DNA from: a virus
Strand: one strand, 5' to 3'
Length of the DNA: 39,613 nt
Virus record (IMG/VR): IMGVR_UViG_3300041964_000183
Span: 1-39,613 of that record
The first letter of the stretch is position 1. Every line of letters begins with the position of its first letter. Below, piece by piece: positions 1-39,613 of the stretch. Under the pieces are notes generated by a model. It was not told where the DNA came from. It made no database searches and saw nothing but the letters and a program-made list of their open reading frames with translations. The translations under genes and the position numbers were made by a program.

Positions 1-381
1 TCAGGGCTTTCGGCGATCGAACACCTTGCGTACGGACTTGGTCGGATCCGGGCGGAGCTGGTCGTGGCGGAGGCGTAGAACGCCGTCGTCGGCCGCCGCC
101 GCTGCGGCGCCTTCGGCGATGTCCTGACCTTGCAGCCAGCGCCGGCCCTTCTCGGTCAGGTGGGCGCGATCGTCGCCATGGACGAAGGTCACGACGCCCG
201 CGTCCCTAAGCTTCGGCAGGTCCCGCCGCACATTGGACAGGACGCGATCCGTCTTGACCGCCAGTTCGCCGACCGTGAGCGCGTGGTCGGGCGCCTCGCG
301 CAAGACGCGCAGCGCGTCGGTGTAGGTGTGCACCACGGCCGGGAAATCCGGCCGGACTCGTTCGCGCATGGGAATGGACAT
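1..381 (-). CDS. Winged-helix DNA-binding protein, small
   Basis: A 126-residue protein, last gene of the leftward early operon in this window. The start is the ATG at 381, whose A is also the last base of the ATPase stop codon (TGATG), which implies translational coupling. Residues ~20-80 read as a winged helix: a helix (ALRVLREAPDHALTV), a turn-helix pair (GELAVKTDRVLSNVRRDL), then a basic wing ending TEKGRRWL. The tail is Ala-rich then basic (VRKVFDRRKP). The fold resembles MarR/ArsR-type regulators but I do not recognise a specific family. The reading frame is intact. Coupling to an AAA+ ATPase suggests the two act together, for example as a DNA-targeting partner, which is inference. Confidence 0.65.
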   Translation of the reverse strand: MSIPMRERVRPDFPAVVHTYTDALRVLREAPDHALTVGELAVKTDRVLSNVRRDLPKLRDAGVVTFVHGDDRAHLTEKGRRWLQGQDIAEGAAAAAADDGVLRLRHDQLRPDPTKSVRKVFDRRKP

Positions 382-1240
382 CAGGCGGTCTCCAGGGCGG
401 GTGGCCAGGGGGCTTTGCTGAGGCGGACAAGGACGTCGTCGGACGCGTCCTCGTCCCAGAGCGGGGGAGTGGGCATCTCGCGCGCCGGCGAGCTCGAGAC
501 GCGGATGCGGCCGAACATGGCCGCGGGGCTGAGGTCGTGGTTCAGGCGCGGGCCCAGGACCAGGTCGCGCTTGATCGACTCGGCGACCTCGCGGATCAGC
601 GCAGGCGCGGCGCCGGCGAGGGCGTCGGACACGGCGCTGATCGTTTCGTCGGAGACGCGGAAGGGCGCGATGTAGCGTTTGACGATGGCGAACCGCTCGG
701 TCGCACCGGGGAGGCCGACCTCGATCTGCAGCTGAAAACGTCGCCAGATCGCGGGGTCGATCGCATCGGGCCGGTTTGTCGCCGCGAAGATCAGGCCGTT
801 GTGCCGGTCCATGAGCTGCAGCAACGCGATGACGATGTTGTTCTTCTCGCCCCCGCCGCTTCCCCCGCCTTCCTTCCGGGCTGCCGCGAGTGCGTCCAGT
901 TCGTCGAAGAAGAGCGCGACTCCGCCGGCGTGCCGGCGGGCCAGGCGGAACAGTTCGGCAAGCTGTGAGCCGGTCTCGCCGATGAACTTCGAGATGAGAC
1001 TCGGCGTCTCGACGACCACCAGCGGAACGCCGAGGCGGCCCGCGACATGCCACGCCAGCGTGGTCTATGCCGTCCGAGGGCACTGCAGGAGCGCTCGGCG
1101 CCTCGGCTGCACGCCTACGGCCGACAGGTCCGCGGCGTAGTTCAGCTCATACAGCCACGCGTGCAGCGCTTGGCGAGTCGCGGGATCCTAGGATGGGCGC
1201 CACTCGGCGTCCTCTCGGGCGCAGAACCTCGCCGAAGTGC
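381..1240 (-). CDS. AAA+ ATPase (FtsH/SpoVK-like), frame-disrupted N-terminus
   Basis: The C-terminal two thirds are clean and carry diagnostic AAA+ motifs: the helix ETPSLISKFIGETGSQLAEL, Walker B VALFFDELDAL (about 895-930), sensor 1 IFAATNRPDAID (about 765-800) and the arginine-finger segment AIWRRFQLQI. The Walker A loop lies around 1050-1080, where the frame breaks; joining frames gives GPS..(GK)TTLAWHVAGRLGVPL. Further upstream another frame gives HAWLYELNYAADLSAVGV, typical of the sequence before Walker A, so the gene begins at or beyond ~1200; its start cannot be fixed. The FtsH/SpoVK class remodels or unfolds protein complexes. The target is unknown. It overlaps the winged-helix gene by one base at its stop. 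Confidence 0.75.
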
Positions 1241-33915: not shown

Positions 33916-34400
33916 CTCTTGAACAAACGGCCGGCGTAGCCTTCTTCCTCGCTGCGGCCGGCTTCATCGTCCGCTATGCGCTGCTGAACCCGGACGTGGG
34001 TCTTTGGCCCAAGGTCGACGGCCCGACCCTGTGCTGGCGCTTCCGCGTCCGAAAGCGCGAGGTCTGCATCTGCCTGCTGTCCTGGGACATCGTCCTGCGG
34101 ACATCCCTGCTGGTGCTGGGCGCGATCCTTGGCGCGCGCGGCTGGCACCTGACCGCCGGCGACGGGCGGACCGATACAACGGGTGCGCTCGCGGCGTGGG
34201 CCCTGGCCTTTCACTCGCTGATCTTCGCTGCGAACCTGCTGCGCCAGCGTCAGCCGCTGTGGCTCACCCGGATGCTGTGCTGGCTGCGGTTGAGCATCCT
34301 AAAGGGCGAGCCGCCGCCCGCTAGGGTGGTGGACGACCTGAACGCGATGGTCGGTGCGCCCGCCGTCTACGACGGAAAGGCCCCGCCACCTGACGTCTGA
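33912..34400 (+). CDS. Membrane protein of the lysis block
   Basis: A 162-residue intact protein. Membrane segments: AGVAFFLAAAGFIVRYALL (~7-25), VLRTSLLVLGAILGARGW (~61-78) and ALAAWALAFHSLIFAANLL (~91-109). The cytoplasmic loop between the first two contains CWRFRVRKREVCIC, possibly metal-binding. Coupled to the holin-like gene by an ATGA overlap, it may be an antiholin or second holin; this rests on position only. Confidence 0.55.
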   Translation: MTLEQTAGVAFFLAAAGFIVRYALLNPDVGLWPKVDGPTLCWRFRVRKREVCICLLSWDIVLRTSLLVLGAILGARGWHLTAGDGRTDTTGALAAWALAFHSLIFAANLLRQRQPLWLTRMLCWLRLSILKGEPPPARVVDDLNAMVGAPAVYDGKAPPPDV

Positions 34401-34449
34401 GCGGACGGCCGCCAGACGTCCACCACGCCACAAAACCCGGAGAACGACC

Positions 34450-34956
34450 ATGACCGACCCTGCATGGATGCAGCGGGCGCGAGCCCTGCTGGGCACCCGC
34501 GAGATCGTTGGACCAAAGCACTCGCCCATCATCATGGGCTGGATCCGGAAGCTCGGCGCCAAGGCGCTGGGGATCAACGTCACCTCCGACGAGACCGCCT
34601 GGTGCGGGACCTTCGCCGGGATCGTCGTCAAGGAAAGCCTGCCCGAGGAGCCGCTCCCGCCCATTCTGGTCCGGGCGAGCGCCTGGGAGCGGTTCGGCCG
34701 GGCGCTCGCCCAGCCCGCCGTGGGCGCCGTGATGGTCTACCGCCGCCCGGGTGGGGGCCACGTCGGCTTCTACGCCGGTCGTTCGCCAAGCGGCGACGAC
34801 GTCATCCTCGGCGGCAACCAAGGCAACGCCGTCAGTCTCATGCGCCTGGACCCTGCCCGGCGCACGGCCATCCGCTGGCCCGCCACCACGGCGCTTCCCG
34901 CCATCGCCAAGACGGTCGTCTTGGCCGACGCGCCCAAGTCCACCAACGAAGCCTAG
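34450..34956 (+). CDS. Endolysin-like Cys peptidase/amidase (TIGR02594 type)
   Basis: A 168-residue intact protein from ATG 34450 (MTDPAWMQRARALLGTREIV). It has the CHAP/NlpC-like TIGR02594 order: PAWMQRARALLGTREI, AWCGTFAGIVVKESL with the catalytic Cys, LVRASAWERFGRAL, VGAVMVYRRPGGGHVGFYAG with the His, and ILGGNQGNAVS. These enzymes cleave peptidoglycan amide bonds and act as phage lysins. No signal peptide or membrane anchor is seen, so export would rely on the upstream holins. Confidence 0.8.
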   Translation: MTDPAWMQRARALLGTREIVGPKHSPIIMGWIRKLGAKALGINVTSDETAWCGTFAGIVVKESLPEEPLPPILVRASAWERFGRALAQPAVGAVMVYRRPGGGHVGFYAGRSPSGDDVILGGNQGNAVSLMRLDPARRTAIRWPATTALPAIAKTVVLADAPKSTNEA

Positions 34957-35701: not shown

Positions 35702-35890
35702 TCACCTGAGTTTGAGGCCGGATTGTTTCTCGATGGAGCGGAGCGTGCCCATCGGAAGGTCCTTCTTGGGGTGCGGGACGGTGACGAGGCCGGGCTTCGT
35801 CGGGTGCATGAAGTGGTGATGGTCGCCCGTCACCCGCTTCAGGTTCCACCCGTCCGCCTCCAAAGCCTTGATGATCGCCCGCGTGTTCAT
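35702..35890 (-). CDS. hicA: HicA mRNA interferase toxin
   Basis: A 62-residue intact protein. MNTRAIIKALEADGWNLKRV, then TGDHHHFMHPTKPGLVTVPH and PKKDLPMGTLRSIEKQSGLK is the dsRBD-like HicA fold with the catalytic His in G(D/S)HH.F.HP. It cuts mRNA when freed from HicB. The ATG at 35890 lies about 7 bases from a good -10 element, so the message appears leaderless. Confidence 0.9.
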   Translation of the reverse strand: MNTRAIIKALEADGWNLKRVTGDHHHFMHPTKPGLVTVPHPKKDLPMGTLRSIEKQSGLKLR

Positions 35891-36568: not shown

Positions 36569-37573
36569 ATGGCGCGCCACAGGATCAGCTACCGCTTCGC
36601 TGGCTTTCAGGGAGTGCGGGAGTCCGCCCCGCTGGAGGAGGTCCTGCGACAAGTCCTCTCAGGAGCACACGCGGAGAACTACACCGATCGGATTTTCAAG
36701 GTCTCCGACCGTCACCTCCGCGCGGTTATTAACCGAAGCGACCTGGATCCTCCAGGTGTGTTGGCCGAGGTCTTTCAACTCGATCCTCGCCGAACGTTGC
36801 CGTTTGTGCAGCACCGCGAGGAGCCGGCCCCAGTCGCTCGAGTTCGAACTCGCGAGGTGCCGACGGACGAAGAGCACATAGGTCTACCTGCCTATTTCCT
36901 TGTGCTTGGAAACCACCTTGCAGTCATCGAGTCCGCTGGGCTGGGATCCAGCCAACTGCAGACTTATCTGAACGCGCTGTTTCAGTCGGCTGGCGTATTG
37001 GCACCTGACGAGCACTGGAAGCTTACCCCCAAGATCGAGGTCGTTGAGGGAACAGCCGCGTTGTCTCAGGGGATCACGCGCCTTGAGGTCAAGCCTATTG
37101 CTCGGCTGGCCGGCGACGCGCCTTCGCAGATGGACGATCGCCGCCCACCGCGCCGAACGCGAAGTGCCGTCGAAGCGCGGGAGACCAAGCTCCAACGAGG
37201 GCCGAAGATCTTCGCTCTACTTGAAGCATTGGGTGCGTCGAACGCGGAGCTGTCCGACCTCCGAGCTCGCATGAGCACTGATCTGGGGCTTGAGGCCAAG
37301 CTGGTCATCTCGGTGCAGCGGAACGCTCGCGCGACCGATGCGACGCTAAGCCCGGCGGACGTGTCCCAAGCGGTAGCGAGCTTGGAGGAAGAGAACGTGG
37401 TCACGATGGTGACGCCGGATGGCACTCAACGGGGCAGACTGATTTCGCTTTCGACCTCCTCAGAAATAGCTGATGATGGCGGGCTGTTAGAATTGGACGG
37501 AGCGATGGGCGCCTTAGCGACGGCTCTGCAGGTCTGGGGCGGCCGTGGGGTGATCGACCTCGGCGGAGGCTGA
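36569..37573 (+). CDS. Soluble 334-aa protein, RexA-like/DUF6731-like (putative defence sensor)
   Basis: MARHRISYRFAGFQGVRESA opens a β-strand/helix start; NYTDRIFKVSDRHLRAV, then LPAYFLVLGNHLAVIESAGL and GSSQLQTYLNALFQSAGVLA form a central domain; HWKLTPKIEVVEGTA follows and ~residues 190-334 are a charged helical C-terminus. The order 'self-described phenotype strand, F..L.NHLAVIES.., (S)..L..YLN.LF' resembles RexA and DUF4747/DUF6731 proteins by eye only. No membrane segment. It ends two bases before the membrane gene. A ribosome-binding site (TGAGGT, ~36544) fits the ATG at 36558 better, which is in another frame for 11 bases; an indel there is possible. Confidence 0.55.
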   Translation: MARHRISYRFAGFQGVRESAPLEEVLRQVLSGAHAENYTDRIFKVSDRHLRAVINRSDLDPPGVLAEVFQLDPRRTLPFVQHREEPAPVARVRTREVPTDEEHIGLPAYFLVLGNHLAVIESAGLGSSQLQTYLNALFQSAGVLAPDEHWKLTPKIEVVEGTAALSQGITRLEVKPIARLAGDAPSQMDDRRPPRRTRSAVEARETKLQRGPKIFALLEALGASNAELSDLRARMSTDLGLEAKLVISVQRNARATDATLSPADVSQAVASLEEENVVTMVTPDGTQRGRLISLSTSSEIADDGGLLELDGAMGALATALQVWGGRGVIDLGGG

Positions 37574-37575
37574 TT

Positions 37576-38172
37576 ATGCGATCGACGATAGCCATAGCTT
37601 TGTTCGGTGCCGCATTAGGCCTCTTAGCGCCTCCTGCCGTGCTCCTCAGCGCAAGCCAAGAGCTGATCGGGTTCATCTCGCTCCTGCTGGCTGGTCTCGT
37701 GCCGGCGATGACGCTGACGGCGACCGCCCTTCGGGGGGAAGGCCTCTCCTCAGCTCGAGTTCGCGATTACGGCAAAAGTCTCCGACGTCAGCTGGACTTC
37801 TGGGGGGTTCTGTTTCTCGTCGGGCTAGTGGCGGTATTCGCCATCTGTGCGGCCAAGATCGTCTCGAAGAGTGACATCCCTGAGTTCAACGTCTCTGGTC
37901 GTGGCTTTGACGTGAGCACCGGCCCGTTCGCCTCGGCGCTCCTGATGATCGGGTTCTCAGCGCTTTCCGTTATCGTCGCTCGGCTGTGGCCAGCATACCG
38001 CGGCCTCCGATCGCTGCTCGATCTAACCGTGGGGTTGGCCGAGCGGCAAGCGCTGGCTAACGACCGAACCCTGGGCGATGAGCTCGAGGAGAAACGAGCT
38101 CGCGTCGCTAATGATCGAACCGCCATCCCCGTCGTGGGATGGACCGTCGAGGGTCCAGAAGCGCGCCCGTAA
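37576..38172 (+). CDS. Four-TM membrane protein, RexB-like partner
   Basis: A 198-residue intact protein with four predicted membrane segments: IAIALFGAALGLLAPPAVLL (~5-24), LIGFISLLLAGLVPAMTLTA (~30-49), FWGVLFLVGLVAVFAICAAK (~75-94) and FASALLMIGFSALSVIVARL (~117-136). The cytoplasmic tail is charged and helical (LDLTVGLAERQALANDRTLG, DELEEKRARVAND). It starts two bases after the preceding stop, so the two genes form one transcript. Lambda RexB is also a four-TM protein paired with a soluble sensor, but sequence identity cannot be claimed. Confidence 0.6.
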   Translation: MRSTIAIALFGAALGLLAPPAVLLSASQELIGFISLLLAGLVPAMTLTATALRGEGLSSARVRDYGKSLRRQLDFWGVLFLVGLVAVFAICAAKIVSKSDIPEFNVSGRGFDVSTGPFASALLMIGFSALSVIVARLWPAYRGLRSLLDLTVGLAERQALANDRTLGDELEEKRARVANDRTAIPVVGWTVEGPEARP

Positions 38173-38297
38173 CCCACGGCCGGCTGGCCGGTCCGGGGGC
38201 GGTCTGGTTTTTCAGCGCTGCGCTAAGTCACTGTTACTTAAAGGGCCAAGAGCGGGCGGTTTTTCGGGTAAGCCATTGAACATGCTGCCTGAAGGCC

Positions 38298-38344
38298 AGC
38301 TTCCCAAGCTTTTCGTGCGGGTTCGATTCCCGCCGCCCGCTCCA
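38298..38344 (+). other. 3' half of tRNA-Gly(CCC), putative prophage attachment site
   Basis: AGCTTCCCAAGCTTTT carries the anticodon loop TTCCCAA (anticodon CCC); GCGGGTTCGATTCCCGC is a perfect T arm; CGCCCGC-T-CCA is the acceptor 3' strand with encoded CCA and the U73 typical of tRNA-Gly. Upstream of 38298 the match to tRNA-Gly stops: the 5' side of the anticodon stem does not pair and no D arm is found. A GCGGGCG at 38252-38258 could pair with the acceptor but gives a 93-base product with no D stem, so I read it as coincidence. A break at the anticodon loop is a classic integration point; the intact tRNA should be at the other end of the prophage. Confidence 0.65.
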
Positions 38345-38767: not shown

Positions 38768-39613
38768 TTGGTAAAACAACGGCAGAGGCAAAAAAGTCGA
38801 GGCGAGTCATCGCATTTTGTCGGCCCCATCTTGATCGGCTCTGACCGGCTACATCGACTCGTCCAGGGGTTCGCGAGGCAGGCGGAGGATCGTAACTTCT
38901 GGCTTACCCCACTTGCAGTAGCGATAACCCTGCTAACTACGCTCGTCGTGTCTGATTTTAAGGATAAATTCGGAGTACCGGCTGGTAACTGGAAGGTGTT
39001 CTTATGTGTTATGCTAGCGTTATTTTCCGTTTGGACGGTAATTTCCTGGAGACGTGCGCAAGCCCGTCAGAGCGTGAATGAGTTTATGGACGTAGTTGCC
39101 GCGAATTCGCTCGCTCCCGTGAGAAAATATGCCCTTCAACTATTTCGGGCAAAGGATGAGCAGGGCACAAATTACCTCCTCTTCTACTTTGACACAATAT
39201 GGAATTGTTATCTTTGTCCGTATTCCAGCCTGCAGCCGGATCAGTCGGCTCCGGAGGATGTTGTTGAGCCCGCCTCAGACCGTTTCGGGCTAGCTAAATA
39301 TGCACTCTCCGCTGTGGAGCTTGACGGGCTTGAGGTTAGGCACACCAAAGAGTCGCAGGCCTCTCATCAGCTGAACAATTACTGGTTTGTCTTTTATCTG
39401 ATTAAGGTAGCCTCGGAGCACGAAGCGGTTTTCGCGAAGCGGGTGTTCGAGATTCAAGGGCGGCAATATAGGTGGATGGCCTTAGAGGAAATCCTGTCCA
39501 ATCCGATGAGCATGGAACGAAATGGGGAAGTCCTTCGATACATTCGGGACAATCGTCAAGCGTTCTTCACCGACGAGGCTGCCCTCTCGATAGAGCGTCG
39601 GCTTCATGAGTGA
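38768..39613 (+). CDS. 2TM protein with inactive Nudix-like domain (Cap16-like effector candidate)
   Basis: A 281-residue frame that ends at the window edge with a TGA. It opens at a TTG (no ATG before residue ~80), so the true start may differ. Two membrane segments, FWLTPLAVAITLLTTLVVSD (~44-63) and WKVFLCVMLALFSVWTVISW (~73-92), precede a soluble part: NYLLFYFDTIWNCYLCPYSS, LAKYALSAVELDGLEVRHTK, NNYWFVFYLIKV and YRWMALEEILSNPMSMERNG, EVLRYIRDN. The strand-helix-strand order and the closing W..LEEIL resemble a Nudix fold, but the catalytic GX5EX7REUXEEXGU box is missing. 2TM-Nudix proteins are known as CBASS effectors (Cap16). No CD-NTase is in the window. Base composition is clearly more AT-rich than the prophage. 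Confidence 0.55.
   Translation: MVKQRQRQKSRGESSHFVGPILIGSDRLHRLVQGFARQAEDRNFWLTPLAVAITLLTTLVVSDFKDKFGVPAGNWKVFLCVMLALFSVWTVISWRRAQARQSVNEFMDVVAANSLAPVRKYALQLFRAKDEQGTNYLLFYFDTIWNCYLCPYSSLQPDQSAPEDVVEPASDRFGLAKYALSAVELDGLEVRHTKESQASHQLNNYWFVFYLIKVASEHEAVFAKRVFEIQGRQYRWMALEEILSNPMSMERNGEVLRYIRDNRQAFFTDEAALSIERRLHE

Follow-up and report, generated by a model that had tools for sequence, protein, structure and literature searches.

Two adjacent genes at the end of a prophage quite probably form a RexAB-type exclusion (abortive infection) module, and they are best read as belonging to a separate sequence family of such modules. They were found in IMG/VR record IMGVR_UViG_3300041964_000183, whose 39,613 nucleotides were analysed as a whole (the window). 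Gene A (36569-37573, plus strand) codes for a soluble protein of 334 aa, with a start supported by the conserved N-terminus of its family, and gene B (37576-38172, plus strand) for a protein of 198 aa. Both frames are open, with a gap of 2 bases between them. An earlier note on this DNA had described two clean frames 2 bases apart, a soluble protein of ~334 aa and a four-TM protein of ~198 aa, and the ORFs, the hydrophobic segments and the structural model of B bear this out. Direct support comes from the two genes themselves, their near-strict linkage and co-divergence, the four helices of B, a RexA-like fold of A in a model of low confidence, the prophage context and the cI-rexA-rexB slot occupied in relatives.

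The location of the pair could be established from its flanks. A 47-bp sequence (38298-38344, plus strand), the attachment-site core that marks the right prophage end, is identical to the 3' half of a Brevundimonas tRNA-Gly(CCC), and the 5' half of this tRNA is absent from the window. A lone tRNA 3' half is what a prophage attachment site would show. The final 46 bases of this half are found exactly in 41 bacterial genome stretches, mostly from Brevundimonas and other Caulobacteraceae, and in seven stretches that were tested they form, in all but one, the terminus of a complete tRNA-Gly gene. Elsewhere the window reads as an ordinary prophage of the tailed kind, with genes for primase, terminase, portal, capsid and tape measure, so the pair sits at the attachment end of a prophage whose host is of Brevundimonas type. 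To its left, and outside the module, are hicA (35702-35890, minus strand) and, downstream of it, hicB (minus strand, reaching to 35295; Pfam HicB_lk_antitox, 2.5e-30), with a candidate endolysin (34354-34956) further left that is weakly CHAP-like (E 0.007, under the Pfam cut-off). The placement between the lysis/HicAB block and the attachment site proposed previously was thus confirmed, with the weak CHAP-like candidate standing for lysis.

A weak terminator-like hairpin followed by five Ts (38193-38207, plus strand) lies 20 bases past gene B, where about 1.2 such sites would be expected by chance in the region scanned, and a sigma-70 promoter scan found none. The third-position GC of the pair (0.69) is lower than in the structural genes tested (0.76-0.90), and lower values are common among cargo genes. 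Neither an integrase nor a left attachment site was identified in the window, and the record may therefore be truncated on its left side; close to this edge is an AAA ATPase (381-1019, minus strand; PF00004, 1.1e-17). To the right of the attachment site, a 281-aa membrane protein (38768-39613) matches PHROG 32870 (2.8e-10) and has a GC of 51.5%, as against ~68% in the phage structural genes; it probably represents a further accessory gene of foreign origin.

Direct searches with the window proteins returned nothing from the phage, plasmid, viral-contig and genome collections. The first true relatives of A (27-37% identity) appeared among 390 genomes of the host family, and further ones were collected through alignments from viral contigs, the class, the whole phylum, one further class sample and annotated phages. 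Homologues of both genes, adjacent and in the same order, are present at more than 20 other loci, which indicates that the pair is more than chance ORFs. Relatives of A were collected at 26 loci, the window among them, and in 25 of these a membrane ORF follows immediately downstream on the same strand, at a spacing that ranges from a 43-base overlap to a 25-base gap. The sample includes an A gene reduced to a remnant (L181) and a partner that is shortened (that of Shigella phage SfIV). The exception (L148, 4361-5308) is a weak match (6.7e-5), a solitary relative of 315 aa among ribosomal-protein genes that has no adjacent membrane gene. A search begun from B alone led to a locus (L160) in which A again stands beside B. 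The pairwise distances of A and B correlate with an r of 0.90, to which clade structure contributes, and none of 5000 permutations reached this value. Separate occurrence of the two genes, which the earlier note had taken as grounds for abandoning the module, is therefore not the pattern seen, and the pair travels together. Some weak tblastn matches (L125 and L130-L135, E 2e-4 to 0.01) were left out of the count; the two that were inspected, L125 and L130, have unrelated contexts.

By sequence, A belongs to a family that has apparently been neither named nor discussed in the literature. It matches the profile of PHROG 3482 (function unassigned) at 1.2e-8 over residues 95-318, the only significant PHROG, and all nine members of the A alignment (A7) match this profile too. 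The protein PERCE_43 of Escherichia phage Perceval does so at 2e-135, and the A genes of Acinetobacter phage phi1_092021 and of SfIV are homologues of PHROG 3482 members. The window protein is a divergent member, with about 15-38% identity to its relatives. No mention of phrog_3482 appeared in the literature searched, and Pfam, NCBIfam and PADLOC gave nothing common to the family and nothing over a cut-off, leaving A unnamed. A previous hint at DUF6731 or DUF4747 had to be dropped, with no Pfam match in any family member. In the PHROG search lambda RexA and RexB fall into PHROG 12654 and PHROG 14878, and gp44 and gp43 of phage CarolAnn into PHROG 36224 and PHROG 38328. Neither the A family nor gene B belongs to the sequence family of its lambda counterpart, and the hhalign profile comparisons were negative as well; hhalign also found no sequence link between the A family and CarolAnn gp44 either, and a sequence search of the PDB did not connect the pair with lambda RexA/RexB or CarolAnn gp44.

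The likeness to RexA emerges from the predicted structure. The AlphaFold2 model of A was built on nine sequences and is of low confidence (mean pLDDT 53); its N- and C-terminal parts are better, and most of the middle, presumably the dimerisation part, falls below 50 (residues 157-290 being mostly of low confidence). When this model was compared with the PDB by VIA-align, lambda RexA (8TWQ, chain 8twq_B) came out on top with a Z of 11.5 and an rmsd of 3.1 over 143 residues, model residues 4-330 aligning onto RexA 1-267; a best Z of 7-8 is typical of this comparison without a clear relative. The runner-up group, CENP-N, scored 7.4, and RdgC 5.3. Foldseek against the PDB gave no significant match and placed RexA only fourth (E 0.13, prob 0.84), so that the fold evidence rests on VIA-align. 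In RexA a globular domain is split between both ends of the chain, with the dimerisation domain inserted between them, and RdgC is a known relative (Dali Z 4.4 between the two) (PMC11077077). The model of A divides in the same way, into split ends and a separate middle, and on this low-confidence model A is predicted to possess a RexA-type, RdgC-like globular domain assembled from its N- and C-terminal parts. The best PDB match was thus the protein to which the earlier note had pointed and no unrelated enzyme. Among the structural matches RexA is followed by CENP-N and Iml3 (Z 6-7.4), which are kinetochore proteins; CENP proteins are not mentioned in the RexA paper (PMC11077077). In a viral fold library the top matches of A were all unnamed proteins, and B had no significant one.

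The parallel with lambda RexA/RexB that had been proposed at the outset therefore stands in fold, in linkage and in the cI/rexAB slot occupied by relatives, and fails as to sequence membership of the lambda families; the analogy is largely right in fold and in likely function, the exclusion activity being ascribed by analogy. Several results count against a RexAB-type module: the model confidence, the non-significant Foldseek match, the missing sequence links to RexA, RexB and CarolAnn gp44, a position of the pair that is not after cI, and the fact that no PADLOC defence model recognises it.

The window pair has the features of a RexAB-type module in that A and B are linked with A first, B has four helices and the pair is prophage-borne. 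As in lambda, a soluble A is followed by a four-helix B in adjacent prophage genes, with lambda RexA (8TWQ) the best structural match to A and some relatives in the same post-cI slot; unlike in lambda, the window pair lies by the attachment site, similarity in sequence is undetectable, and both proteins are larger (334 aa against 279 for RexA, and 198 against 144 for RexB). CarolAnn gp44/gp43 and Sbash gp30/gp31 are likewise pairs of a soluble and a four-helix protein, both needed for exclusion, and their A proteins are RexA homologues that bind DNA (PMC11077077, PMC6426606, PMC6426596); the CarolAnn pair differs from ours in its PHROGs and has no sequence link to it. RexABpp of Pseudomonas putida (PP_5643/PP_5644, prophage P1), the closest of the studied analogues and compared here by its published description, has a DNA-binding A of ~37 kDa with a RexA-like fold and a four-helix B, and resides in a proteobacterial prophage that also carries hicAB, the difference being that it sits in the repressor operon (PMC12894663). 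Prophage P1 contains both hicAB2 and rexABpp, and there HicAB has no part in defence (PMC12894663). Overexpression of RexApp halts growth only with RexBpp, membranes becoming permeable with no depolarisation detected, and suppressors were found in B (PMC12894663). The membrane depolarisation invoked for the window pair in the earlier note should accordingly be read as membrane damage.

With lambda RexAB, Sbash, CarolAnn and RexABpp as analogues (PMC11077077, PMC6426596, PMC6426606, PMC12894663), a course of events can be proposed. The product of gene A would be a soluble, probably dimeric, DNA-binding protein of RexA fold that senses the replication of an incoming phage, through a product or a DNA intermediate, and, once activated, triggers B. 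The four-helix inner-membrane protein B might then oligomerise into a pore or leak and damage the inner membrane, and growth would stop before the second phage matures, protecting the sister lysogens. That A binds DNA, dimerises and activates B, that B forms a pore and that the pair excludes phages is all taken over from these analogues.

Gene B has hydrophobic segments at residues 5-23, 30-48, 78-96 and 117-135 and an AlphaFold2 model of four long helices, and hydrophobicity and model together predict a four-helix integral membrane protein. A proline, P43, is conserved among the alphaproteobacterial-type partners, in which A39, R136 and L148 are nearly invariant. Between the alpha-type and gamma-type partners no sequence relation is detectable, and nearly all B partners keep 3-5 hydrophobic segments. 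The window B has no significant PHROG match, and the membrane partners downstream of PHROG 3482 genes fall into PHROG 16807, PHROG 4510 and others that are unassigned. An assignment of B to DUF2567 (0.004, under its cut-off) was rejected, and a fingerprint of seven RexBpp residues (from PMC12894663) was matched by no B partner, the best having four of the seven. B has thus diverged past sequence recognition and A has remained one family, making A the constant half of the module and B the variable one.

This divergence also bears on the main rival, in which the roles are reversed: A would be the part that is toxic or acts against the phage, and B would only keep it at the membrane, to be set free on infection. 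Mycobacteriophage Butters gp30/gp31, of the same anatomy, works in this way (PMC12894663; original work PMC7542560), and a B unrecognisable between alpha- and gammaproteobacterial members beside a single A family might fit A as the constant active part. A fast-diverging effector B would, however, yield the same pattern, and B is the effector in the other four RexAB-type systems studied, so that we consider such a reversal unlikely.

The gene neighbourhoods of the relatives fall into several kinds. At two loci (L153 and L160) the pair directly follows a repressor of CI type (HTH and peptidase S24), and in phi1_092021 one small ORF separates it from the repressor upstream, its A homologue carrying the depositors' name 'DefenseFinder protein'. 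In Perceval the order is CI - A - B - Kil - Gam - Bet - exonuclease, CII, O and P being encoded on the opposite strand, and the pair occupies exactly the rexA-rexB slot of lambda. Adjacency to the immunity repressor was thus found in these relatives (L153, L160, L161 and L163) and not in the window, and it is not universal in RexAB-type systems, Sbash and Butters being different (PMC11077077). Elsewhere the pair converges on an integrase (L149, L155 and L159), with a tRNA upstream in L149 and L155, an arrangement like that of the window, or has late genes, such as those for tail or lysis, as its neighbours (L150, L156, L162, L175 and L180, judged partly by eye). In SfIV (L162, 2405-3827) the A gene is beside holin/endolysin genes, and its 108-aa partner adjoins a transposase gene.

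The relatives next to cI could suggest that the main role of A is to regulate the lysogeny/lysis switch, with B an accessory membrane anchor and exclusion secondary or absent; lambda RexA itself binds DNA non-specifically and biases this switch independently of RexB (PMC11077077). This is improbable, since the pair is away from the switch both at the integrase/att end (the window, L149, L155 and L159) and near tail or lysis genes (L150, L162, L175 and L180), and since RexApp has no effect on its repressor promoter (PMC12894663). Late-gene neighbours and a small, helical membrane protein B might equally fit a two-gene membrane module of unrelated mechanism (DNA-entry superinfection exclusion or an undetected lysis/holin accessory), a decidedly improbable reading that would leave the RexA fold of A, the repressor-linked placement and the rexAB slot unexplained. 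That the window copy is no longer functional has very little probability: broken copies do occur (the frameshifted pair of G145, the SfIV partner, the remnant at L181), but in the window both frames are intact and of full length, and they can be aligned with their relatives from one end to the other. In the G145 copy (L138, 5300-7048) both genes are frameshifted, by decay or sequencing error.

Beyond the exclusion module itself, we would suggest, at somewhat short of an even chance, that PHROG 3482 and its partners make up a separate class, widespread in Proteobacteria, in which one family of RexA-fold sensors is combined with four-helix membrane effectors that have been swapped or have diverged past recognition by sequence, and which replaces rexAB in some lambdoid coliphages. 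The function class is known; the sequence family has no name in Pfam, NCBIfam or PADLOC. A paper of January 2026 puts the number of RexAB-like systems described at only five (PMC12894663), and if the suggestion is true a whole sequence family, spanning alpha- and gammaproteobacteria and coliphages, would join them. Should PP_5643 belong to PHROG 3482, the window pair would join the RexABpp group as a divergent member; otherwise it would represent a separate class. Of 5426 complete Escherichia coli genomes, 42 carry the Perceval-type pair (L163, 3635-5185), 41 of them over at least 80% of its length, so that a further Rex, independent of the first and in the same slot of the genome, could serve to test the old question of the Rex trigger in E. 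coli K-12. Among the matches listed these copies are annotated as hypothetical proteins, and one of them (T309.Ta3) is split by an IS3-family element.
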